A stretch of 64,000 nucleotides of DNA from Novosphingobium sp. (GTDB taxonomy: Bacteria > Pseudomonadota > Alphaproteobacteria > Sphingomonadales > Sphingomonadaceae): positions 1-64,000 of the forward strand of contig SECS01000002.1 of the NCBI GenBank assembly GCA_004211435.1, in the 5' to 3' direction. The notes below the pieces were generated by a model, which was not told the origin of the DNA, did no database searches, and saw only the letters and a list, made by a program, of their open reading frames with translations. The first letter of the stretch is position 1. Every line of letters begins with the position of its first letter. This document shows, one piece after another, positions 4,459-50,843 of the stretch. The translations under genes and the position numbers were made by a program.

Positions 4459-6155
4459 TGGCTCGCTCCTCGCTTGGCCGCCATGGCGGTACGATTGGAT
4501 TGGATATGGCCCTCTCGCTCGTCGTCCTGCGTGAAGCGGAGGTCCAACTCTTCCTCGTCGGCGTCCAGCGACGCCTTCAGTTCGGCGATCTGCCTTTCCA
4601 CGGCCTTGCGCTTGCGATCACGAGCGCGTCGACGCTGATCATGGGATTGGCGACGTTCGAGTTCCTCTGCGCGTTCGGAGACCTCCTGCGCGAGGCGCGC
4701 GGCGCCTGTCAGGACGCCGTTTTGGCCGATGTAAGGCTCGATCAACCTGATGCCATCGTCGGTAAGCAGGTATTCGCGAATCTGGTTGGAATGCTTCATG
4801 CCGCGCGACTTGAGGACATAGAGTACGCGATTGCGTTCACCGTTGGATTCCACGTCGCTCAGCGAGATCCAGCTGTCCATCAGCGACGAGACGCTGCGGT
4901 CGGCTTCGGTCACGTGGTCGGCGGCCAGCGACAAGCTGGTCAGGACTGCGGTGATGCCGCGCCCTTTGCAGATGTCGACCAGTCTCAAAAGCGTCGCGTG
5001 GATTTCCGACTGGACCCCGCGCAGCGCCGAGATCGGATCGATGATCACCGCGCTGGGTTCGAACTCCTCGATGTCCCGGTTCATGCGGGCAAGGTGCATT
5101 TCCAGGCCGAACAGGCTGGGACGGGCGGCCTCGAAACATAGCAGTCCGGCGTCGACGTGACGCTGCAGGTCGATCCCCGCCGATCGCATGTTGCGTATGA
5201 TCTGCGCCGGCGATTCTTCGAATGCGAAATATAGGCATCTCTCGCCGCGGGAGCAGACCGCATTTGCAAAAGTCGCGCTGAAGGTCGATTTTCCGGTGCC
5301 TGCAAGGCCCGAGATCAAGATGCTCGATCCGCGGAAGAACCCGCCGATGCCGAACATCGTGTCGAGGTCTGCGATGCCGGTCGGCACGACTTCCGAGGAC
5401 GTCTTGTGATCGAGGCCTGCCGATGTGATCGGCATGACGCTGATACCGCGACCGTCGATGAGAAATGGGTATTCGTCCGTGCCGTGCGAGGATCCGCGAT
5501 ATTTCACGACACGCAGGCGCCTCGTCGTCACCTGGTCCAGCACGCGGTTATCGAGGAGGATCACGCAGTCGGAGACGTATTCCTCGATGCCATAGCGCGT
5601 GAGTTGACCCTCACCGCGCTCGGCCGTGATGATCGCGGTGACGCCCTTGTCCTTGAGCCAGGTGAAGAGGCGGCGAAGCTCTGCCCGCAGGACGCCCTGA
5701 TCGGTGAGGCCCGAGAACAGCGCCTCTATCGTATCGAGCACGACCCGCTTCGCGCCGATCTTGTCGATCGCATAGCCGAGCCGAACGAACAGGGCTTCCA
5801 GGTCATACTCGCCGCTGACCTCGATCTCCGCCGGCTCGATGCGGACATAGTCGATGGCCAGGCGATCCTCGGCGATCAGCTTTGCGACGTCATAGCCAAG
5901 CGAGGCGACATTCTCGATCAGGTCGTCGGAGCGTTCCTCGAAGCTGACGAATACGCCATTTTCATTGAACCGTGTGGCGCCGTTCACGAGGAAGGTCATC
6001 GCGAAAAGCGTCTTGCCGCAACCCGCAGCGCCGCAAAGCAGGGACGGCCGGCCACTGGGCAGGCCACCCAGCGTGAGATCGTCCAGCCCGTTAATACCGG
6101 TAAGAGATTTCAGCAGCGCCCTCGAAGGGCTGTCCGGAGCGTTGACGATGGTCAC
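4455..6155 (-). CDS. kaiC: KaiC, double-domain circadian clock-type ATPase
   Basis: The protein has 566 aa with two RecA-like domains. CI has Walker A GAAGCGKT (42-49) and catalytic Glu pair E73-E74. CII has Walker A GLAGTGKS (283-290) and E313-E314. The CII autophosphorylation site, Ser-Thr in Synechococcus KaiC, reads S423-S424 in RSVSSLMD. Beyond about residue 485 a tail of roughly 80 residues follows, rich in Arg, Glu and Lys with heptad-like spacing ([13 protein letters not shown]), probably a coiled coil. It lies where cyanobacterial KaiC carries the short KaiA-binding tail. No kaiA is present. The gene starts inside the stop of the upstream ribbon-helix-helix gene (4-bp overlap) and runs into kaiB. 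It is expected to act as a KaiA-independent, timer-type KaiC hexamer. Confidence 0.95.
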
Positions 6156-36877: not shown

Positions 36878-37711
36878 ATGGCCAGCGAGGCGGCGAACCG
36901 GCTCGACCATCGTGCGATCAAGCCGGCGATCGGTGCCGAGGTGCTGGCGGACAAGCCGGCCTTGCTCTCGGGAGGCCATGCCGCGGAGCTGCGCGCGCTG
37001 CTCGAAGATCGCGGCGTCCTGATCTTCCCGCGGATCGATTTCTCCGAGGCCGAACTGGTCGCCTTCACCAAGACGCTCGGTACCTATGCGCCCGATCGTG
37101 ACGACGAGGGCGTCACGCCGATCTCTATCGACCCCGCCGGCGGCCGCAGCGCCGACTACACCCGCGCTTCGTTCTTCTGGCACTTTGACGGCTACATGAA
37201 CGCCGCGCCGATCCTCGCCTCGATCCTCTGCGCCAAGGTCCTGTCGGAAAGCGGCGGCGAGACCGAGTTCTGCAACACCTATGCCGCCTGGGAGGCGCTA
37301 CCCGAAGCGCGCAAGCGCCAGATTGCGGGGCTGCAGGCGGTCCACGCGATGGCTGGCGCACAGCGCGCGGTCGATCCCGAGCCGAGCTACGAGACGCTGC
37401 AGCAATGGCTCGAGGTACCGCGCCGGACCCTGCCGCTGGTCTGGACGCACCGTTCGGGCCGCCGCTCGCTGGTGATCGGCAATACCGCGGTCAACGTCGT
37501 CGGCATGGACCCGCTCGAGAGCTTCGAACTGCTCGTCTGGCTGCGCGAATGGGCGACGCAGGAGCGCTTCCACTATGCGCATAGCTGGTCGCGCGGCGAC
37601 GCGGTGATGTGGGACAACACCGGGACCTTGCACCGCGTGCGGCCCTATCCGGCCGACAGCGGCCGTCTGATGGTCCGCACCAAGCTTGCCGGCGAGGAGC
37701 CTCTGGGCTGA
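36878..37711 (+). CDS. TauD/TfdA-family Fe(II)/2-oxoglutarate dioxygenase (copy 1)
   Basis: 277 aa from ATG 36878 (GGGAGAGAAG upstream). The iron triad is H102-x-D104 in FFWHFDGYM and H252 in NTGTLHR. R263, 11 residues after the distal His as in TauD, would hold the 2-oxoglutarate carboxylate. It couples oxidative decarboxylation of 2-oxoglutarate to succinate with hydroxylation of a substrate, often cleaving a C-O, C-S or C-N bond. It is the first of three tandem homologues and the most divergent (shorter, FYTRASFF-like front). The substrate is unidentified. Confidence 0.92.
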   Translation: MASEAANRLDHRAIKPAIGAEVLADKPALLSGGHAAELRALLEDRGVLIFPRIDFSEAELVAFTKTLGTYAPDRDDEGVTPISIDPAGGRSADYTRASFFWHFDGYMNAAPILASILCAKVLSESGGETEFCNTYAAWEALPEARKRQIAGLQAVHAMAGAQRAVDPEPSYETLQQWLEVPRRTLPLVWTHRSGRRSLVIGNTAVNVVGMDPLESFELLVWLREWATQERFHYAHSWSRGDAVMWDNTGTLHRVRPYPADSGRLMVRTKLAGEEPLG

Positions 37712-37751
37712 GCAAATCGCTGTTCGAATTCAGATCAAATTAAACTGTACA

Positions 37752-37766
37752 CGATCACAGTGATCG
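37752..37766. promoter_or_regulatory. 15-bp palindrome before dioxygenase copy 2
   Basis: CGATCAC A GTGATCG is a perfect palindrome with 7-bp arms, 80 bp upstream of the start. A TTGACG 17 bp from GAAATA (about 37778-37806) downstream of it could be the promoter. A regulator site is plausible, for example for the nearby TetR. Confidence 0.4.
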
Positions 37767-37846
37767 CCTCGGCGTCCTTGACGGCCAGCCTTGCTTGGCA
37801 GAAATAGACGCGAGCAGTTCGTTTTTCTCATTGATCGGAGTTCGCC

Positions 37847-38698
37847 ATGGCCACCGCCGCCAAGACCCGCCTTTCCGTCGAGGACATCAAGCCCGGGATC
37901 GGCAGCCGCATTCTCAACAGCAAGGAAGAGCTGCTCCGCGGCGAAAACGCCGAAGAGCTGCGCGATCTGCTCGAGCAGCGCGGCGTCCTGGTCTTCCCGC
38001 AGGTCAACTTCACCGACGAGGAGCAGGTCGCCTTCACCAAGACGCTCGGCACTTTCGCGCCGGAGATGACCGACAAGGGCGGTGAGGACAAGGTCCACCC
38101 GATCACCCTCGACGAGAAGGTCAACCCGAGCTCGGCGATCTACCTCAAGGGTTCGCTGTTCTGGCACATCGACGGCACGATGAACCAGATGCCGATCCGC
38201 GCCTCGCTGCTGCGCTGTGTCGTTCCGTCGCCCAAGGGTACGGGCAACACCGGTGTCGCCAACACCTATGCCGCCTACGACGCGCTGCCCGAGGACAAGA
38301 AGGCCGAGTTCGACGGCTACCGCGTCCGTCACGGCGCCTGGCCGACCCTGATGTACTGGAACCCGGAGCCCAACCAGGAACTGCTCGAGCGCATGCAGAG
38401 CATCGGCGACGTCGAGATCCCGCTGGTCTGGAACCACGAGTCCGGCCGCAAGTCGCTGGTCATCGGCAACACCGCGCACACGATCGTCGGCAAGGACCAC
38501 TTCGAGAGCGTCCGCATCCTCAACTGGCTGCGCGAGTGGGCGACGCAGGAGCAGTTCGTCTACAGCCACGAATGGTCGGTCGGCGACATGATCATCTGGG
38601 ACAACACCGGCACGATGCACCGCGCCGAAGCCTATGATCCCGCCACGGGCCGCATGATGGTGCGCACCAAGCTGGAAGGCGAAGAGCCGCTCGTCTGA
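37847..38698 (+). CDS. TauD/TfdA-family Fe(II)/2-oxoglutarate dioxygenase (copy 2)
   Basis: The protein has 283 aa; GGAG is 7 bases before ATG 37847. Triad: H107-x-D109 in FWHIDGTM and H258 in NTGTMHR, with Arg269 at +11 for 2-oxoglutarate. Compared with copies 1 and 3 it has KGTGNTGVANT in place of GGETEFCNT, so the substrate-facing loop differs. The 135-bp upstream space with its own palindrome suggests separate control. The C-terminal LEGEEPLV end is shared by all three copies. Very similar start segments (MATA...) in copies 2 and 3 point to a recent duplication. Confidence 0.92.
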   Translation: MATAAKTRLSVEDIKPGIGSRILNSKEELLRGENAEELRDLLEQRGVLVFPQVNFTDEEQVAFTKTLGTFAPEMTDKGGEDKVHPITLDEKVNPSSAIYLKGSLFWHIDGTMNQMPIRASLLRCVVPSPKGTGNTGVANTYAAYDALPEDKKAEFDGYRVRHGAWPTLMYWNPEPNQELLERMQSIGDVEIPLVWNHESGRKSLVIGNTAHTIVGKDHFESVRILNWLREWATQEQFVYSHEWSVGDMIIWDNTGTMHRAEAYDPATGRMMVRTKLEGEEPLV

Positions 38699-38722
38699 GC
38701 GCCTTCGTTCGCAACGTTTGCA

Positions 38723-38752
38723 GCGGCCGTCCTCGCGAGAGGGCGGCCGTTT
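38723..38752 (+). terminator. Terminator after dioxygenase copy 2
   Basis: GCGGCCGTCCTC pairs with GAGGGCGGCCG around GCGA (38723-38749) and is followed by TTT. It separates transcription of copy 2 from copy 3. Confidence 0.7.
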
Positions 38753-38756
38753 CGCG

Positions 38757-38786
38757 TTGACGCTCGCGCGCGTCGCGCTGTACAAG
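38757..38786 (+). promoter_or_regulatory. Candidate promoter for dioxygenase copy 3
   Basis: TTGACG (38757-38762) and TACAAG (38781-38786) are spaced by 18 bases, directly after the terminator and 44 bp before the start codon. Confidence 0.4.
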
Positions 38787-38829
38787 TGTTCAACAACAAG
38801 GCCCGCAAGGCTTATGGGAGAACACGAAG

Positions 38830-39678
38830 ATGGCGACAGCCGTATCCTCACGCTGGGAAGTCACCGACGTCGCGCCGAAGATCGGCTCGGCCATCCACAC
38901 CGACAAGACGACGCTGCTTTCGGGCGAGCGCGCGAGCGAAATTCGTGAGCTCATGGAGCGCCGCGGGGTCATCGTCTTCCCCGAGATCAACCTGACCGAT
39001 GACGAGCAGATCGCCTTCACCCACACGCTCGGCACTTTCGCGCACGAGGATGGTGAGGCGGCCGGCGGCAAGGATGCGGTCTATCCGATCACGATGGATT
39101 CGAGCATCAACCCGATCGCCGAATACCTCAAGGGCGCCTTCTTCTGGCACCTCGACGGGACGATGTCGGACAAGCCGATCCTCGCCTCGATCATGAGCGC
39201 GCGTGCGCTAGCGCCCGTCGGTGGCGAGACCGACTTCTGCAACACCTATGCCGCCTGGGACGAACTGCCCGAGGACGAGAAGGCGCAGATCGAGGGCCTG
39301 CAGGTCGACCATGCGATGTGGCGTTCGCAGCTCTACGTGAACCCCGAGCCGAGCTATGCCCTGCTCCAGCAGTGGCAGTCGCGCGGCAAGAACACGCTGC
39401 CGTTGGTGTGGAAGCACCGTTCAGGCCGCAAGTCGCTGGTGCTCGGCGCGACCGCGCTTTCGGTGCTCGGCAAGGACCCGACCGAGAGTGAATCGCTGCT
39501 CGTCCGTCTGCGCGACTGGGCGACGCAGGAGCGCTTCTCCTACCGCCACACCTGGAAGCTCGGCGACATGGTGATCTGGGACAACACCGGCACCATGCAC
39601 CGCGCGCTGCCCTATGACCACAAGTCGGGCCGCCTGATGATGCGCACCAAGCTCGAAGGCGAGGAAGCCTTCGCCTGA
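38830..39678 (+). CDS. TauD/TfdA-family Fe(II)/2-oxoglutarate dioxygenase (copy 3)
   Basis: 282 aa from ATG 38830 (GGGAGAACACGAAG upstream). Triad: H107-x-D109 in FWHLDGTM and H257 in NTGTMHR, with R268 at +11. The GGETDFCNTYAAWDELPED block resembles copy 1, whereas the N-terminal half is closer to copy 2, so the history includes duplication and perhaps recombination. It lies 94 bp before an SDR gene, which could oxidise the hydroxylated product. No metal-site residue is lost in any copy, so all three are probably active. Confidence 0.92.
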   Translation: MATAVSSRWEVTDVAPKIGSAIHTDKTTLLSGERASEIRELMERRGVIVFPEINLTDDEQIAFTHTLGTFAHEDGEAAGGKDAVYPITMDSSINPIAEYLKGAFFWHLDGTMSDKPILASIMSARALAPVGGETDFCNTYAAWDELPEDEKAQIEGLQVDHAMWRSQLYVNPEPSYALLQQWQSRGKNTLPLVWKHRSGRKSLVLGATALSVLGKDPTESESLLVRLRDWATQERFSYRHTWKLGDMVIWDNTGTMHRALPYDHKSGRLMMRTKLEGEEAFA

Positions 39679-39772
39679 GGCTTCCCAGCAGGTTGGCGAA
39701 GTGCCGGGACGGCATTGACCGTCCCGTGCGCATCCCGCTAACAACCTGACGAATCTTTTCAGGGAGAGCAGT

Positions 39773-40654
39773 ATGAGCCAGCCACCAGTCGCGATCGTCA
39801 CCGGTTCGAGCCGCGGCGCGGGCAGGGGGATCGCCACGGCGCTGGGTTCGCATGGCGCCACGGTCTACGTCACGGGGCGCTCGCAGAAGGAAGGCGACGC
39901 CTCGATGCCGGGGACGATCCACGCCACCGCCGCCGAGGTCACCGCGGCCGGCGGCAAGGGTATCGCCGTCGCCTGCGACAGCAGCAAGGACGAGGAGGTC
40001 GGCGCGCTGGTCGAGCAGGTCATCGCCGAGCAAGGCCGGGTCGACATCCTGATCAACAACGCCTGCGCCATCTACGACGAACTGTCGATGCCCGGAAACT
40101 TCTGGGAAAAGCCGCTCAAGATCGGCGACATGATCAACGTCGGCGTGCGTTCGGGCTTCGTCGCCTCGTGGCACGTCGCGCCGCATATGGTGAGGCAGGG
40201 CCAAAATGGAAAAACGGGCGGCCTGATCCTGTTCACCTCGTCGCCCGGGGCCATGCACTACTGCTTCGGCCCCGCCTATGGCGCGCACAAGGCGGGCATG
40301 GACAAGATGGCCTTCGACATGGGCGTCGATTTTGCCGATGCCGGTTCCAAGGTCGCCGCCGTGTCGATCTGGATGGGCGCGCTGACCTCCGAACGCCTGC
40401 TCGAGATGATGGCGGCCGAGCCCGAGAAGTTCAAACACCTCGAAGGCCAGCTCGAGTCCACCGGCCTCACCGGTCATGTCGCATGGGCGCTCTTCAACGA
40501 TCCCAAGCTGCTCGACTACAACGGCAAGACCTTGGTCGGCGCGGACATGGCCAAGCACTACGGCATCACCGACCTCGGCGGTCAGTTCGCCCCCTCGTTC
40601 CGCGAGCAGACCGGCATAGCGCCCGCGGAGTACGGGGCCTACAAGGTGAAGTGA
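39773..40654 (+). CDS. Short-chain dehydrogenase/reductase, DHRS1-like
   Basis: 293 aa from ATG 39773 (GGGAGAGCAG upstream). NAD(P) motif: TGSSRGAGRG. NNAC follows strand 4. Ser of FTSSPGA and YGAHK form the active site. The ASMPGTIHATAAEV insertion after strand 2 matches the SDR at 9177, marking the DHRS1-type group. It ends the plus-strand dioxygenase block, and its stop lies 10 bp from the convergent molybdopterin oxidoreductase stop. It likely acts on an alcohol produced in the same pathway (inference). Confidence 0.88.
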   Translation: MSQPPVAIVTGSSRGAGRGIATALGSHGATVYVTGRSQKEGDASMPGTIHATAAEVTAAGGKGIAVACDSSKDEEVGALVEQVIAEQGRVDILINNACAIYDELSMPGNFWEKPLKIGDMINVGVRSGFVASWHVAPHMVRQGQNGKTGGLILFTSSPGAMHYCFGPAYGAHKAGMDKMAFDMGVDFADAGSKVAAVSIWMGALTSERLLEMMAAEPEKFKHLEGQLESTGLTGHVAWALFNDPKLLDYNGKTLVGADMAKHYGITDLGGQFAPSFREQTGIAPAEYGAYKVK

Positions 40655-40664
40655 GCGCGGTGGC

Positions 40665-42710
40665 TCAGGCCGCCACCGGCTCCACCGCGATCGGGATCCC
40701 CGTATAGAGCACCATGCCGGTCAGCCGATCGACCTCCTCGACGCTGGTCAGCAGGTTGACGTTCGCTGCCTCGTGCCCGTGCGGAATCGAGGCGACGCCG
40801 CGGCGGATAGTATCGCTGACGTTTGCGGTCAGCACGATCTCGCCGCGCGTCGTGCTCACGCGCACCGCGTCGCCGTGGACTATGCCGTTGGCCTCGGCAT
40901 CGGCGGGGTGGAGGATAATGTCCGCGGGGCTCCCCAGGAAGCTCAGCGCGGCGTTCAGCTTGCGGCGCTGGCGGCGCGAGATGAAGCACAGCGGGCGCGG
41001 TCGGCCCAGCGCGGCCTGGTCCTCGGCGCGCAGTTCCTGCCAGAAGCCGACCAGTGCGGGCGGCGCGAGCTTCCAGCCGCCCATGCGTTCGATGTGGGCA
41101 TCGACCCAGGTGCCGGGAAACTCCAGCGGCAGCACCACGGTGCCGTTTGCCGCGACCTCTTCGTAGCTGACGCGCGCATGGGGCATCAGCGCGGCGAGCA
41201 TCGCCTCGTCGGCGCCCTGCTGGAGATCGCTCTCGGGCACGTAGTCGGGCAGGGGCAAACCGACGCGCTTCATGATCTGCGCGATCACCCACCAGGCCGA
41301 GCGCCGTTCGCCCTGCGGTTCGACCAGCGCCGGCGTGTGCAGCATCGACAGACTGCCCGAGAGCGTGTCCCAGAAGGCGATGTCGGGGCGTTCGACCTGG
41401 TCCTTGGTCGGCAGGACGTGGGTCGAGAGCGCGGTCGTCTCGTTGGCGATGATCTCGAAGGTGACGTGGAGGTCGAGGCTTTCGAGCTGCGGCGTCAGCA
41501 CGTTGGCATCGGGGAACGAGCGCAGCAGCGCGCCGCCGAAGTTCATCAGCGCGCGGATATTGCCCGCTTCGATCTCACCGGGCAGCGCCGCGCAGGGCCA
41601 GTCGCCGAAGATGCCCGAGACTTCGGGCATGGTCGGCGCGCCCGGCGTGAACGGATCGTCGAGCACGGGCAGTTCGAAGGAGTCGAACTGGGTGATGAAG
41701 CCCGGGTGAAACCAGGTACCGCCTGCGCGGTTCATCCGCCCGGTCAGGATATTGATGACCCAGCCGAGCCATACGGTGACGTTGGCGCTCCGCGACATGG
41801 TCACGCCGGTTCCCGTCTCGATCGTGACATGGCCCTTGCGGCGGACCGCGGCGAGGAGGTCGGTCAGATCCTGTTCGGGCACGCCGGCGATCTGCGCGGC
41901 CGTTGCGAGGTCGAAGCCGGCGAGCGCCGCGCGCAACTCTTCCAGCCCCTGGATCGGCTGCGCCGGCGTCATCGGCCCACCCTCGATGATCTCGCGCGCC
42001 AGCCAGGCGAGCACGGCATAGTCCTTGCCCGGATGGGGCTGGACGTGGCGGGTCGAGAACTTGGCGGTCTCGGTGAATAGCGGGTCGATCGTCCAGACCT
42101 CGCCGCGCTTGGCCATGGCGCGGATCGGTCCGGCAGGGTTGAACATGCCGGTGTTATGGCCGTGGCTGACCATCGGGTTGGTGCCGACATAGACGAGCAT
42201 ATCGCAGGCCTTGTCGTCGGTCTTGGGATTGAGCCCGGGAAACCCGCCGACCTGCATCGCCACGAGCAGCTTGGCCGTGCCGTCGATCGTCAGCGGCGAG
42301 AACTTGGGCGGGGCTCCCAATGCCTTGTAGAACGTATCGACCAGGCGATAGCCCGAGGCGTCCATGCCCAGCCCGCTGCCGAAATAGACGCCCACCGCGT
42401 TGGGCCCGTGCGCGTCGATCACGCCGCGCAGCTTGGCGGCGATATCGTCGAGCGCCTCGTCCCAACTTACCTCCACCAGAGCGCCCTGCTTGCGCATCAT
42501 CGGGCGGGTGATCGCATCGGGGTGATGGTGGATGCCGCCGATCGCGCGACCCTTGGGGCAGGAGTAGCCCTGGCTCAGCGGATGCTCGCGGTCGGCGCGA
42601 ATCTTGACGATCTGCTCGATGCCGGCCTCGTCCCGGGCGACATCGATCACCATGCCGCACTGGTTCGTGCAGATGCGGCAATAGGTCTTCTTGCTGACCG
42701 CATTTTCCAC
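40665..42710 (-). CDS. Molybdopterin (bis-MGD) oxidoreductase with N-terminal 4Fe-4S site
   Basis: About 681 aa. The start is taken as GTG 42710, because GGGGAG lies 8 bases upstream inside a longer TTG-started frame. C11, C14, C18 and C51 (YCRICTNQC...SCPKG) hold a 4Fe-4S cluster as in formate dehydrogenase/nitrate reductase-type enzymes. The following domains are typical of the DMSO-reductase family: GSGLGMDASGYRL, TNPMVSHGHN and the C-terminal dinucleotide-binding domain with LHPADAEANGI and GVASIPHGH. No selenocysteine or Tat signal is evident, so it is cytosolic. It is divergent from a TetR gene with an operator between them. The substrate is unknown; such stand-alone subunits need an external electron carrier. 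Confidence 0.9.
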   Translation of the reverse strand: MENAVSKKTYCRICTNQCGMVIDVARDEAGIEQIVKIRADREHPLSQGYSCPKGRAIGGIHHHPDAITRPMMRKQGALVEVSWDEALDDIAAKLRGVIDAHGPNAVGVYFGSGLGMDASGYRLVDTFYKALGAPPKFSPLTIDGTAKLLVAMQVGGFPGLNPKTDDKACDMLVYVGTNPMVSHGHNTGMFNPAGPIRAMAKRGEVWTIDPLFTETAKFSTRHVQPHPGKDYAVLAWLAREIIEGGPMTPAQPIQGLEELRAALAGFDLATAAQIAGVPEQDLTDLLAAVRRKGHVTIETGTGVTMSRSANVTVWLGWVINILTGRMNRAGGTWFHPGFITQFDSFELPVLDDPFTPGAPTMPEVSGIFGDWPCAALPGEIEAGNIRALMNFGGALLRSFPDANVLTPQLESLDLHVTFEIIANETTALSTHVLPTKDQVERPDIAFWDTLSGSLSMLHTPALVEPQGERRSAWWVIAQIMKRVGLPLPDYVPESDLQQGADEAMLAALMPHARVSYEEVAANGTVVLPLEFPGTWVDAHIERMGGWKLAPPALVGFWQELRAEDQAALGRPRPLCFISRRQRRKLNAALSFLGSPADIILHPADAEANGIVHGDAVRVSTTRGEIVLTANVSDTIRRGVASIPHGHEAANVNLLTSVEEVDRLTGMVLYTGIPIAVEPVAA

Positions 42711-42733
42711 GGCCGTTCTCCCCAAAAGCCCAA

Positions 42734-42769
42734 TAAGTGGTCAATCGGCCACTTACGATACCTTGTCAA
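42734..42769 (-). promoter_or_regulatory. TetR-type operator overlapping the oxidoreductase promoter
   Basis: TAAGTGG and CCACTTA form a perfect 7-bp inverted repeat with an 8-bp spacer (42734-42755). On the minus strand a consensus -35 TTGACA (42769-42764) is 17 bp before a weak -10 (GATTGA) that falls inside the dyad. A regulator bound here would block transcription of the oxidoreductase and probably its own gene. Confidence 0.65.
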
Positions 42770-42796
42770 CGGGAAGCACTCTGATAGGCCGGGGCG

Positions 42797-43360
42797 ATGG
42801 AGTCCGTTCTCGCCGCCAAGCCCGAGCCGAAGCGCCGGAATCTCGAGCAGACGCGCGCACGCATCCTCGCGGCGGCCGCCGACGTCTTCACGCGCTCGGG
42901 CTATGCCCAGGCCGGGCTCCGCGAGATCGCGGTGGAGGCGCAGGTCGCACCCTCGCTGGTCAGCCGCTACTTCGGTTCCAAGGCGGCGCTGTTCGAGGAG
43001 GCGTTGGTCCACGTCCTGCGCACCAATTCGGTGTTCACCTGGCAGAAGATCGGCTTCGGCGAGGCGATGGCGCGGCTGATCCCCGAGCGCAGCAACACGA
43101 ACATCACCGTCATGCTGGTGACGGCGCTGGCCGATCCCGAGGCCAAGGAGATCGCGCGCCGCGTATCGCGCGAACACATGATCCAGCCGCTGGTCGACTG
43201 GCTCGGCCCGCCGCATGCGCTCGAGCGCGCGATGGACATGTTCTCGCTGATGACCGGCTTCGTCATCCAGATGGATGGGCTCTATCCCGAGACGATCCCC
43301 GAGCATTCGCTGCGCTGGCTCGCGCGTTCGCTGCAGGCGATCGTCGACGGCGAGGACTGA
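42797..43360 (+). CDS. TetR-family regulator, probable repressor of the molybdopterin enzyme
   Basis: 187 aa from ATG 42797. The helix-turn-helix is TRARILAAAADVFTRSGYAQ then LREIAVEAQVAPSLVSRYFG, ending GSKAALFEEAL. The C-terminal domain (WQKIGFGEAMARLI to IVDGED) resembles the TetR_C domain of the PA3699/YcdC-like group. It is divergent from the oxidoreductase with the dyad at 42734-42755 between them, the classic layout of an autoregulated local repressor. A phosphotransferase gene starts 2 bp after its stop, so it is in the same operon. Confidence 0.9.
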   Translation: MESVLAAKPEPKRRNLEQTRARILAAAADVFTRSGYAQAGLREIAVEAQVAPSLVSRYFGSKAALFEEALVHVLRTNSVFTWQKIGFGEAMARLIPERSNTNITVMLVTALADPEAKEIARRVSREHMIQPLVDWLGPPHALERAMDMFSLMTGFVIQMDGLYPETIPEHSLRWLARSLQAIVDGED

Positions 43361-43361
43361 C

Positions 43362-44651
43362 ATGATCGAAGACTTCGCGACCGGCCGGGCCACGGGTCTG
43401 GCGATGCCGAGCCATCCCGCGGCGCTGCGCGAGGCCGGTGCCGAGTTCCTTACGCAGGCGTTTCACGCCTTCGGCTCGCTGCCGTCAGACAACGCCGTTG
43501 CGCGGATCGTTGCGGTCGAGCCGTGTCATGCTGGCAATTCGGGGCAGAAGCTGCTGCTGTCGGTCGAATATGCGCGGCCCGATCCCGCGCTGCACACCGA
43601 TCTTTTCGTCAAGCTGTCGCGCGATTTCGCCGACGCCTTCCGGGATCGCCGACGCTACGAGCTCGAAGCCGAAGTGCGCCTTGCCGAACTCGCCCGGCTG
43701 TCGTCTTTCCCGGTTGCGGTGGCGAGGCCCTATTTTGCCGACTTCGATCCCGACACCGGTTCTGGCCTGCTCATCACCCAGCAGATCGCCTTTGGCGAGC
43801 AGGGTCTCGAACCGCTGCGCGCGAAGTGCCGCGATCACGAGCTGACCAACGCGCTCGAACACTACCAGGCGACCGTGACCGCGCTTGCGGCGCTCGCCGC
43901 TGCGCAGCATCGGGGCGCGCTGTCGCCCGAACTCGAACGGCTGTTCCCGTGGGACCGGACCGCCGCTGCCGCCGACCTGCCGATCCCGCAGGGGCCCGAA
44001 CAGATTCGCGCCAAGGTCGCCGCGATCGGCGCGCTGGTGCAGGGCAGCCCGCAGCTGTTCCCGGCCGCGGTCCGCGATCCTGGCTTCGTCGAGCGGCTCG
44101 AACGCGACGCGCTGGCTTTGCTCCGCCACGAGGCTGCCGTGCGCCGCTTCCTCCACGCCGATCCGCGCTTCGTCGCGCTGACCCACTGGAACACCAACAT
44201 CGACAACGCCTGGTTCTGGCGCGACGCGGGTGGCGTGCTCCGCTGCGGCCTGCTCGACTGGGGCATGGCCCGCCAGATGAACCTCGCTTACGGCCTATGG
44301 GGCGGGCTCTCGGCCGCAGAGGGCACGATGATCGCGGCGCATCTCGACGATTTGCTGACCCTGTTCGCGCGCGAACTCGCGGGGCATGGCGGACCCGACT
44401 TGCCGCGCGACCTGCTGGATATTCATTTCGACCTGTCGGTCGCCATGCTCGGTCTCGCACTGATGCTCGATTTCCCCGCGCTGCTCGCCGCGCGCCTCCC
44501 CGAAGCGGCACAGGCGGCCGGCCCGCGCGACCCGCTGATCGACCGCGATCCCGTGGTCCGCGGCTTTCTCCACGTCTCGACCAATTTCCTCGATCTCTGG
44601 GCGCGGCGCGATTTCGGCGCGAGCCTGACGGCGATGCTGGCGCTGCGGTAG
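43362..44651 (+). CDS. APH/ChoK-like phosphotransferase
   Basis: 429 aa from ATG 43362, 2 bp after the tetR stop. The kinase-like fold is suggested by LFVKLSRDFADAF (ATP-binding Lys strand), an LLITQQIAFGEQGLEP hinge, and the catalytic loop LTHWNTNIDNAWFW with H and N at HGDxxxxN spacing (HWNTNIDN; the usual Asp is Asn) and metal-binding Asp in LLDWGMA. Proteins of this type in catabolic clusters phosphorylate alcohols or act on acyl carriers. The Asn for Asp at the catalytic position is notable and could reduce or change activity. The substrate is unknown. Confidence 0.75.
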   Translation: MIEDFATGRATGLAMPSHPAALREAGAEFLTQAFHAFGSLPSDNAVARIVAVEPCHAGNSGQKLLLSVEYARPDPALHTDLFVKLSRDFADAFRDRRRYELEAEVRLAELARLSSFPVAVARPYFADFDPDTGSGLLITQQIAFGEQGLEPLRAKCRDHELTNALEHYQATVTALAALAAAQHRGALSPELERLFPWDRTAAAADLPIPQGPEQIRAKVAAIGALVQGSPQLFPAAVRDPGFVERLERDALALLRHEAAVRRFLHADPRFVALTHWNTNIDNAWFWRDAGGVLRCGLLDWGMARQMNLAYGLWGGLSAAEGTMIAAHLDDLLTLFARELAGHGGPDLPRDLLDIHFDLSVAMLGLALMLDFPALLAARLPEAAQAAGPRDPLIDRDPVVRGFLHVSTNFLDLWARRDFGASLTAMLALR

Positions 44652-46063: not shown

Positions 46064-49863
<3,800 letters not shown>

Positions 49864-49878
49864 GGGAATTGGGCAAGC

Positions 49879-49952
49879 CCTTCTCCCGCTGGCGGGAGAA
49901 GGATAGCGTAGCTTGCTCCGTCAGGAGCTAGCGGAGCTTGGATGAGGGTGGC
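49879..49952 (+). repeat. Left 74-bp terminal inverted repeat
   Basis: The palindrome covers 49879-49902. The hairpin is GCT T GCTCC, loop GTCA, GGAGC T AGC (49911-49932). The inner conserved block is 49940-49952. The repeat encodes the last ten residues (HPHPSSASS region) and stop of the DUF559 protein, read on the minus strand. Confidence 0.85.
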
Positions 49953-50289
49953 CAAGCGCGACCTCCAATGCCCGCAGGACCCCCTCGATGTTTTCCAGCA
50001 CTTCGTGGTTCCAGTAGCGCACCACGCGATAGCCCATGCTCTCGAGCAATGCAGTGCGCTGCTCATCGACCGCTGCGCTATGCTGCCCGCCATCGACTTC
50101 GACGATCAATCTGGCTGCATGGCACAGGAAATCCGCCACGAACGGTCCCACGGAGACCTGTCTGCGGAACTTCCAGCCCGCGAACCGCCGTGCACGTAGC
50201 GCATGCCAGAGATACCGCTCGGCGTCGGTCATGTTGCGCCGAAGGTGGCGCGCGTGCGGACTGGTTCGGCGCGTGATTGCCACCCTCAT
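49921..50289 (-). CDS. DUF559 (Vsr-like) putative endonuclease
   Basis: 122 aa from ATG 50289, which is part of the GGATGAGGG block of the right repeat; GGAG stands 4 bases before it. ATG 50232 is an alternative. The core ARHLRRNMTDAERYLW, FRRQVSVGPFVADFL, LIVEVDGGQH and ALLESMGYRVVRYWN matches DUF559, a small relative of the very-short-patch (Vsr) and PD-(D/E)XK nucleases. D53, E64-x-D66 and H70 are the likely catalytic residues. It stands alone between ligA and an HxlR gene. Codon use is like the host's. A role in nicking DNA at its own flanking hairpins is an attractive inference; general repair or restriction is the alternative. Confidence 0.85.
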   Translation of the reverse strand: MRVAITRRTSPHARHLRRNMTDAERYLWHALRARRFAGWKFRRQVSVGPFVADFLCHAARLIVEVDGGQHSAAVDEQRTALLESMGYRVVRYWNHEVLENIEGVLRALEVALGHPHPSSASS

Positions 50290-50352
50290 CCAACTCCGGC
50301 TAGGCGCTGACGCGCCAAGCCTGCGTATCCTTCTCCCGCCAGCGGGAGAAGG
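50279..50352 (-). repeat. Right 74-bp terminal inverted repeat
   Basis: Read on the minus strand it aligns without gaps to the left copy. The palindrome (50329-50352) is identical, the hairpin is GCT T GGCGC, loop GTCA, GCGCC T AGC, and the block GGATGAGGGTGGC (50291-50279) is identical. It supplies the ribosome-binding site and first codons of the DUF559 gene. Confidence 0.85.
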
Positions 50353-50387
50353 ATAGCCGGATCCGCATCGGATCAGTTCTCTTAACT

Positions 50388-50843
50388 TCACCTTGGCGGT
50401 GCGTTTTCCTCGGGCGCGACCATGCGGAGTTCCAGTTCGGCCAGCGGCTTGCCGCTGACCCGATCGATAACGATGGGCTCGATCGCCGCGCCGGTCGCGC
50501 CGTCGGTCATGACATTGAGGCAGCCTTCGCCGAAATGCCGGCGCCCCCAGGCGCCGAGCGCGGACAGGATCGGCAGGAGGTCGCGGCCCCTCTCGGTCAG
50601 GACATATTCGTCGCGCGGCGGCCGCTGGCTGTAGCGCCGCTTCTCGAGCAGGCCGTCCTCGGTCAGTGCGGTCAGCCGCCTGGTCAGGATGTTGGGGGCG
50701 ATGCCCAGGCTGGTGCGGAACTGGTCGAACCGCGTCGCCCCGAAACCCGCATCGCGAAGGATCATCATCGACCAGGTGTCGCCCACGCGCAGCAGTGCAC
50801 GAGCGAGGGGGCAGGGGCCGGCGGAATATTTTTCGATGTCCAT
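50388..50843 (-). CDS. HxlR-family transcriptional regulator
   Basis: The protein has 151 aa. MDIEKYSAGPCPLARALLRV starts with the conserved CPL(A) near the HxlR N-terminus (Cys11 is often redox-active). The winged helix is GDTWSMMILRDAGFGATRFD, FRTSLGIAPNILTRRLTALT and GLLEKRRYSQRPPRDEYVLT with wing and T-E-R-G. A 60-residue C-terminal extension (GEGCLNVMTDGATG to PEENAPPR) is longer than minimal HxlR proteins and may bind a ligand. It is divergent from an SDR gene with a dyad between them, so it probably regulates that gene and itself, possibly in response to electrophiles or quinones. Confidence 0.9.
   Translation of the reverse strand: MDIEKYSAGPCPLARALLRVGDTWSMMILRDAGFGATRFDQFRTSLGIAPNILTRRLTALTEDGLLEKRRYSQRPPRDEYVLTERGRDLLPILSALGAWGRRHFGEGCLNVMTDGATGAAIEPIVIDRVSGKPLAELELRMVAPEENAPPR

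Follow-up and report, generated by a model that had tools for sequence, protein, structure and literature searches.

A DUF559 nuclease gene enclosed by inverted hairpin repeats with mirror purine tails, and a candidate REP-like nuclease-repeat element in bacteria

The window (the whole stretch of 64,000 nt of Novosphingobium DNA analyzed here) carries a compact unit of 474 bp, at positions 49879 to 50352, in which a single DUF559 gene is enclosed by two inverted 74-nt repeats (Table 1). The arms are 80% complementary at a spacing of 326 nt, and their alignment scored 48, compared with a maximum of 18 at 5,000 random places of the same spacing in the window with the element masked (46 in the unmasked version of this control); the pair of inverted repeats around one DUF559 gene that the initial annotation had described is thus confirmed. 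The gene product matched PF04480 (DUF559) with an E value of 4.9e-38 and 129.8 bits, against a Pfam gathering cutoff of 20.6. Its putative start codon, ATG at 50289 to 50287, is the one contained in the right-arm sequence GGATGAGGG; the GGAG four bases 5′ of it, a plausible Shine-Dalgarno sequence, lies in the same arm, as does a second in-frame start candidate, GTG, two codons after the ATG. The stop codon, TGA (TCA at 49921 to 49923 on the plus strand), falls within the left arm, where its second hairpin has the loop GTCA. In DNA folding, each arm formed two hairpins (z scores of −4.1 for the left arm and −4.7 for the right), and the second hairpins of the two arms differ in sequence while keeping their pairing through paired changes. 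Sequence and DNA fold together uphold the earlier statement that the putative start codon, the plausible Shine-Dalgarno sequence, and the stop codon all lie inside the repeats. An Rfam search of 49700 to 50500 returned a single match, far under the gathering score.

Table 1. Features of the DUF559 unit in the window and of the empty site related to it
Feature	Position	Strand	Basis
Left terminal repeat unit: hairpin, second hairpin, and gene-facing purine tail	49879..49952	+	Inverted arm; fold z −4.1
Left stem-loop CCTTCTCCCGCTGGCGGGAGAAGG (Y arm, loop, R arm)	49879..49902	+	Palindrome search, DNA fold
Left second hairpin, GTCA loop with stop codon	49905..49938	+	DNA fold
Left tail GGATGAGGG, mirrors R arm GGGAGAAGG except for one A-to-T change	49940..49948	+	Mirror-tail comparison
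DUF559 (PF04480) gene, predicted PD-(D/E)XK nuclease, 122 aa	49921..50289	-	Pfam; AlphaFold2 domain model
Right tail GGATGAGGG, includes ATG	50283..50291	-	Sequence
GGAG, plausible Shine-Dalgarno sequence within right repeat	50294..50297	-	Sequence
Right second hairpin	50293..50326	-	DNA fold
Right stem-loop CCTTCTCCCGCTGGCGGGAGAAGG	50329..50352	-	Palindrome search, DNA fold
Right terminal repeat unit	50279..50352	-	Inverted arm; DNA fold
Empty counterpart of the L128 unit site: 10-bp gap, convergent genes	40655..40664		Flanks 89-94% identical, no unit

The genome containing the window (4.49 Mb in 402 contigs) has four DUF559 genes, and the exact palindrome CCTTCTCCC(2-12 nt)GGGAGAAGG occurs in it at four places, two of which are the window arms. 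Two of the other DUF559 genes (L002 and L003) adjoin C/T-rich palindromic pairs of other types, and by eye the remaining one (L004) has no palindromic pair.

The AlphaFold2 model of the window DUF559 domain (pLDDT of 85) matched the structures of NGO0050 (3hrl; Z of 14.7), the catalytic domain of I-Bth0305I (Z of 11.8), and Vsr (1cw0; Z of 9.7, with an rmsd of 3.7 over 102 residues). On the basis of this model, the domain is predicted to have the Vsr-like PD-(D/E)XK nuclease fold shared by all three proteins; unlike that of Vsr-type nucleases, however, the window locus showed no mismatch repair or methylase context. In window domain numbering, Asp44, Glu55, Gly58, His61, Asp66, and Arg69 were invariant in 28 family members and Asp57 was almost invariant, and dN/dS ranged from 0.05 to 0.27 in nine DUF559 pairs, two of which had a dS above 1.6, near saturation. 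According to a report on Caulobacter VsrA (PMC12907096), that protein has a DUF559 domain, as the window protein does, and is blamed for the DNA damage response in cells lacking the cytosine methylase, which suggests by analogy that proteins of the DUF559 type can cut DNA in vivo.

Of 99 genomes from the Sphingomonadaceae, the family to which the window belongs, 88 carried DUF559. From the top 66 places listed we took 60, extended by 6 kb in both directions as far as the contig reached; those omitted were the window's own place, two G097 places, a single place in G065, another in G022, and a place sharing locus L066 with one of the others. Perfect hairpins (stem of at least 9, loop of at most 8) numbered 58 in the 250 bp upstream of DUF559 and 66 in the 250 bp downstream, compared with 110 spread over the remaining 46 bins of this size (mean, 2.4 per bin), which amounts to an enrichment of about 26-fold at the gene flanks. 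Only 3 of the 60 loci had no such hairpin; the other 57 had it on one flank or more, with both flanks involved in 44. Twenty lower-rank family loci, picked by hand, had a hairpin in 15 cases (on both sides in 10) and an inverted-arm score above 22.5 in 17.

A wider scan covered one genome per species in 84,980 species, and the 80 loci named here are the best 80 of at least 566 confirmed; because the profile was built from six family members, they are not representative of all DUF559 proteins, and many come from metagenome bins, with names as given for those bins. These 80 loci held 186 hairpins near the gene (4.7 per kb) and 86 elsewhere (0.16 per kb), a difference of about 29-fold, and the arms beat all 320 random controls in 64 loci, among them L151, which did so via runs of N. 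The loci scoring above the controls included several orders of Alphaproteobacteria, Acinetobacter, Luteimonas, Variovorax, Rokubacteria, Methylomirabilota, one of the two planctomycete loci, and three Chloroflexi groups; the arms of the Serratia locus were not above the random controls. When ten loci were taken by hand from 44 plasmid collection records, strong paired arms were seen in only three (Deinococcus, Sphingomonas, and Sinorhizobium), and by eye the remainder mostly had one-sided or degenerate units, with none at L337. The refuting case named in the initial annotation, DUF559 genes elsewhere standing without repeats, was not borne out, since most of the other DUF559 genes examined carry such repeats; the association between DUF559 genes and repeats is common, and we have hardly any doubt that it is real.

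Several individual loci of these sets differed in detail. Picosynechococcus plasmid pAQ6 (L331) has a cyanobacterial DUF559 gene amid CCCCC..GGGGG hairpins with a GGGGG tail, and at the DUF559 gene of the Deinococcus plasmid (L332) the tails are directed outward from the gene, both as judged by eye. On Sinorhizobium meliloti pSymB (L338), a DUF559 gene with inverted arms scoring 100 has an ATP-binding protein gene and an IS4-like element as neighbors, a setting that could be a defense-like context. In many DUF559 proteins, the final residues are encoded by the downstream repeat and form PLPNPSPARGEG-like tails (e.g., L041, L053, and L064).

The two arms of a locus match each other and follow the gene. 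In the 60 family loci, the median score of a locus's own arms was 33; pairing with arms from different loci within that genome gave 14.5, and random places gave 11. This score was above the maximum of 300 controls (22.5) in 44 loci and above the 95th percentile of the controls in 49, leaving 11 at or below the latter, and the partner arm was the best match in 28 of the 32 loci having rivals in the same genome. The left and right stems belonged to the same class in 87 of 102 loci. We mapped stem class onto a tree of 139 DUF559 domains (105 columns, with many forks unresolved; one of the 140 proteins, which has a stop, was left out), labeling 124 loci and leaving unlabeled 9 whose sides differ and 7 without a class. 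Stem class changed 24 times on this tree, compared with a mean of 45.6 and a minimum of 39 in 1,000 shuffles, and when shuffling was confined to within genomes (52 loci in six genomes of mixed stem class), none of 2,000 shuffles (mean, 14.6; minimum, 11) was as low as the 10 changes observed; because linkage alone could yield the same result, we read this signal as co-inheritance of the gene and its ends and not as recognition.

Read toward the gene, the unit has the order pyrimidine arm, loop, purine arm (R), linker, and purine tail. Tails were compared in 236 units, which came from 134 of the 140 loci; in 186 of these units the tail was a perfect mirror of R over 8 nt, with T allowed for A, compared with 14% for permuted R and 16% for R swapped from other units; the mirror orientation was better than the direct one in 95 units, worse in 5, and equal in the rest. 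Examples of R and tail are GGGAGAAGG and GGATGAGGG in the window, whose arms satisfy the rule with one A-to-T change, GGGGGAAGG and GGATGGGGG in Chloroflexi, and GGGAGGGG with a tail of GGGG(A/T)GGG. Where the sequence reached far enough in both directions (232 units), perfect tails faced the gene in 182 cases and stood on the outer side in 43. The linkers of these 182 perfect units included TT (36 units), TTG (19), TCG (16), TTA (15), CTG (10), and CCG (9), and 44 were longer than 6 nt; the window arms use the second hairpin as the linker. A purine-motif DNA triplex needs a mirror purine strand; for a protein reading duplex DNA, the copy would have to be direct or inverted. The CIR repeats of Caulobacter and the RIME elements of rhizobia may be related.

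An intrastrand triplex motif of E. coli, TM_ECO, formerly called BoxC and the PIT element, was described by Holder et al. in 2015 (PMC4666352). According to that paper, it has 23 copies in E. coli K-12, among them five inverted pairs; forms a stable triplex as judged by circular dichroism and nuclear magnetic resonance; and is known from more than 260 genomes, where it has been tied solely to genomic instability. TM_ECO resembles the repeats at DUF559 genes in its CT-rich hairpin, its GGGTGAGGGG tail, and its inverted pairs; its own linker is TTA or CCG. In sequence, the unit flanking DUF559 genes is BoxC/PIT/TM, a triplex motif known from the literature as an orphan. The difference lies in the associations: TM_ECO was found to have no tie to transposons, phages, or plasmids, whereas here the motif is linked to DUF559. 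A term search of the same paper found no mention of endonuclease, DUF, or Vsr. We likewise found no prior report of a DUF559-repeat link in the titles and opening parts of abstracts searched, a body of literature that excludes subscription journals and preprints, and among the literature matches listed for the string CCCTCTCCC, none was related by title. The interpretation given in the initial annotation is supported in part: the pairing of DUF559 with repeats held and is wider than had been supposed, but the mirror tail and the identity with BoxC/PIT/TM had been missed.

E. coli also has a DUF559 gene. YcjD, annotated as DUF559, is encoded between sapF and fabI, and at least 80% of the YcjD stretch was covered in 3,330 of 5,426 E. 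coli genomes. Downstream of ycjD in K-12, at a distance of 166 bp, there is a triplex motif whose stem has one mismatch (L339). YcjD is a DUF559 protein like that of the window, but ycjD has no paired inverted arms (arm scores of 15 and 14). The PF04480 search gave no match in the E. coli control genome, although K-12 carries ycjD. Two E. coli strains lacking ycjD were rejected as clean empty sites; because efflux genes stand after sapF there, we regard these strains as replacements.

Comparison with a related genome revealed a filled and an empty site. The closest relative of the window unit among the matches listed is L128, in Novosphingobium sp. JCM 18896, with a protein that is 74% identical. 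Because the flanks of L128 match window positions 36989 to 44509 at 89 to 94% identity, the two form a filled/empty pair: the L128 unit sits between the counterparts of window positions 40657 and 40663, and the window has no unit at this site, where genes for a short-chain dehydrogenase (39773 to 40654) and a molybdopterin oxidoreductase (40665 to 42725) converge. The window's own unit (at 49879) lies 9 kb from this empty site. The window and L128 units are 77% identical, which is below the identity of the flanks, and since the units are less alike than the flanks, they are best read as separate insertions of one clade and not as a recent jump. The DUF559 copy of L128 has an in-frame stop and two ends of different stem classes; about 20 to 40 nt of extra sequence lies outside each arm, and no target site duplication was evident by eye.

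Other sites tell of inheritance as well as of gain or loss. Units recur in the same operon gaps across genera (odhB-lpd, GatB/YqeY-dnaG, and trpB-trpA), and this sharing of gaps by different genera points to much vertical inheritance. For the trpB-trpA gap, 30 loci were fetched of the 55 genomes with a trpA match. Two of these loci carried a DUF559 unit in the gap, one carried a gene-less pair, and two carried hairpins that were single or degenerate. The gap was empty (−1 or 2 bp) in 11 loci and was occupied in a further 13 by other sequence that did not match DUF559 (in three cases too long to print); the last locus was unreadable. At the level of sequence, gain or loss of units at defined sites is demonstrated. 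The ligA-hxlR interval had been proposed as another place to compare empty and filled sites, with the reservation that it might always contain the gene. In the congeners examined it does not: of the 38 that have a ligA match, 29 were fetched, and their first 1.5 kb after ligA yielded no match to DUF559 or to hxlR. Because hxlR itself did not turn up after ligA in these congeners, the interval is unusable as a test site and was dropped.

Repeat pairs also occur away from any DUF559 gene. By eye, 19 of 20 hand-chosen close palindrome pairs from four genomes had the inward order hairpin-tail...tail-hairpin without a gene, and in one (L221) the tails pointed outward. Outward tails were also found in the two gene-less pairs of the window's genome (L005 and L006), in each of which a palindrome of the window type is paired with a second, related palindrome with no DUF559 gene between them. 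Gene-less pairs of the same genome had similar arms and spacers that were no more alike than shuffled ones (a comparison made without the G033 pair L220, which was unparsable); we accordingly rejected the idea that these pairs are whole copies of one element. REPINs, the gene-less pairs of REP/RAYT systems, have variable spacers, and the RAYT gene is single copy. Among the pairs L208 to L226, one arm with a short linker and one with a long linker were frequently combined, a mixture resembling the type A plus type B pairs of Holder et al. (PMC4666352).

Genome-wide counts link the repeats to the gene, though in a limited way. Copies of TCTCCC(1-8)GGGAGA, counted with those beside the DUF559 gene included, averaged 14.7 per genome where DUF559 is present (88 family genomes) and 1.6 where it is missing (11 of the 99; p = 0.005). 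Each of the 34 genomes reaching 10 copies or more carries DUF559. Across the 99 genomes, the raw correlation between the numbers of DUF559 genes and repeats (rho of 0.57) was gone once two repeats per gene were subtracted (rho of 0.14, p of 0.16).

The known systems closest to this arrangement are REP/RAYT (the REPtron) and the TIRtron (PMC3733652; PMC8266576), in which a small nuclease gene likewise stands between inverted palindromic units; as in REP/RAYT, DUF559 genomes also hold gene-less pairs elsewhere. In contrast, RAYT is an HUH tyrosine transposase, whereas here we find a DUF559 protein predicted to be a PD-(D/E)XK nuclease and repeats with mirror purine tails. Because its enzyme is not an HUH transposase, the DUF559 unit is not a member of REP/RAYT. 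Compared with an insertion sequence, the unit shares inverted ends. We favor, with moderate confidence, the reading that the window unit belongs to a widespread kind of nuclease-repeat element that works in the manner of REP/RAYT. According to this model, the purine tail would fold back onto the hairpin as a purine-motif triplex when the DNA is single stranded or supercoiled; the DUF559 protein, as a Vsr-like PD-(D/E)XK nuclease, would recognize the folded end and nick nearby; and the nicked ends would be copied or joined elsewhere, so that the ends are kept alike and gene-less pairs spread. Cutting and movement are steps that we infer, and DUF559 probably does act on the repeats along these lines. 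The REP-like role with a different enzyme that the initial annotation had put forward is compatible with the gene-less pairs and with the filled and empty sites.

Three other explanations were weighed. DUF559 could be a homing-like selfish nuclease that cuts alleles lacking the unit, after which host repair would copy the unit in, with the repeats serving as a cutting signal or as shared homology. The second-best fold match of the model, to the catalytic domain of the homing endonuclease I-Bth0305I, fits this idea, as does the presence of units in the same operon gaps of different genera. However, units of one DUF559 clade stand at different places in the window and in L128, and because gene-less pairs occupy many unrelated places, homing into one allele fails to explain them; we therefore consider this account unlikely. 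DUF559 could instead be a domesticated host nuclease that orders triplex-prone repeats or repairs DNA, the repeats regulating its own expression or ending transcription. The purifying selection indicated by dN/dS, the mostly vertical placement in operon gaps, and the tie of Caulobacter VsrA to DNA damage without a methylase would all suit such a role. On the other hand, arms matched on two sides, mirror tails, and gene-less pairs exceed what a regulator needs, and earlier work cited in PMC4666352 found neither promoter nor terminator activity in E. coli PIT elements, so that we judge domestication to be quite unlikely. The remaining explanation, that the repeats are spread by another enzyme such as RAYT or by replication slippage, with DUF559 riding between two of them, would fit the orphan copies and site instability of the E. 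coli triplex motif (PMC4666352), but we regard it as very improbable, since such regular pairing with one gene family is not expected of a passenger and Y1_Tnp (PF01797, the RAYT domain) is scarce, with no match in the window's genome and matches in 17 of the 99 family genomes, while the Y1 loci examined lack paired arms (0 of 19, these being 21 matches minus the partial L247 and L248) and had no CT-rich hairpin listed. For these last two reasons, the rarity of Y1_Tnp and the lack of paired arms at Y1 loci, RAYT was rejected as the main explanation for how the repeats move.

Two orphans, the DUF559 family and the triplex motif, may account for each other, and DUF559 may be the partner that these familiar but unexplained bacterial repeats have lacked. 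Should DUF559 act on the motif, a structure of non-B DNA would function as a component of a mobile or genome-shaping system; REP-like systems would then have arisen with different nuclease folds. The question is directly testable in E. coli K-12, which has both YcjD and the motif.

GIY-YIG genes served as a control set, consisting of 30 loci (L249 to L278) that were the best matches in the same family genomes. CT-rich hairpins were absent from all but one of these loci, and inverted arms scoring above 20.5 were present in 22 of 30, compared with 2 of 150 random controls. By eye, the arms of these 22 loci were of the GTCGA type in 17 (e.g., TTCGTCCTGAGC..GTCGAAGGACG), of the CGTCAT type in 3, and of other types in 2. 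Such GIY-YIG genes and their repeats may constitute a parallel nuclease-repeat system. A broader proposal, which we hold only tentatively, is that DUF559 genes and triplex-forming palindromes make up a class of very small, autonomous mobile elements in several phyla, in which a single nuclease of about 110 residues would recognize triplex ends and be the cause of BoxC/PIT/TM, and that GIY-YIG genes with GTCGA- or CGTC-type repeats would be a second, independent system. CGTC-tagged REPs of Alphaproteobacteria were described by Di Nocera et al. in 2013 (PMC3733652) as abundant palindromes without a dedicated transposase. Like the DUF559 repeats, they are abundant alphaproteobacterial palindromes, but they differ in sequence, and they resemble the CGTCAT-type arms found at 3 of the 30 GIY-YIG loci.
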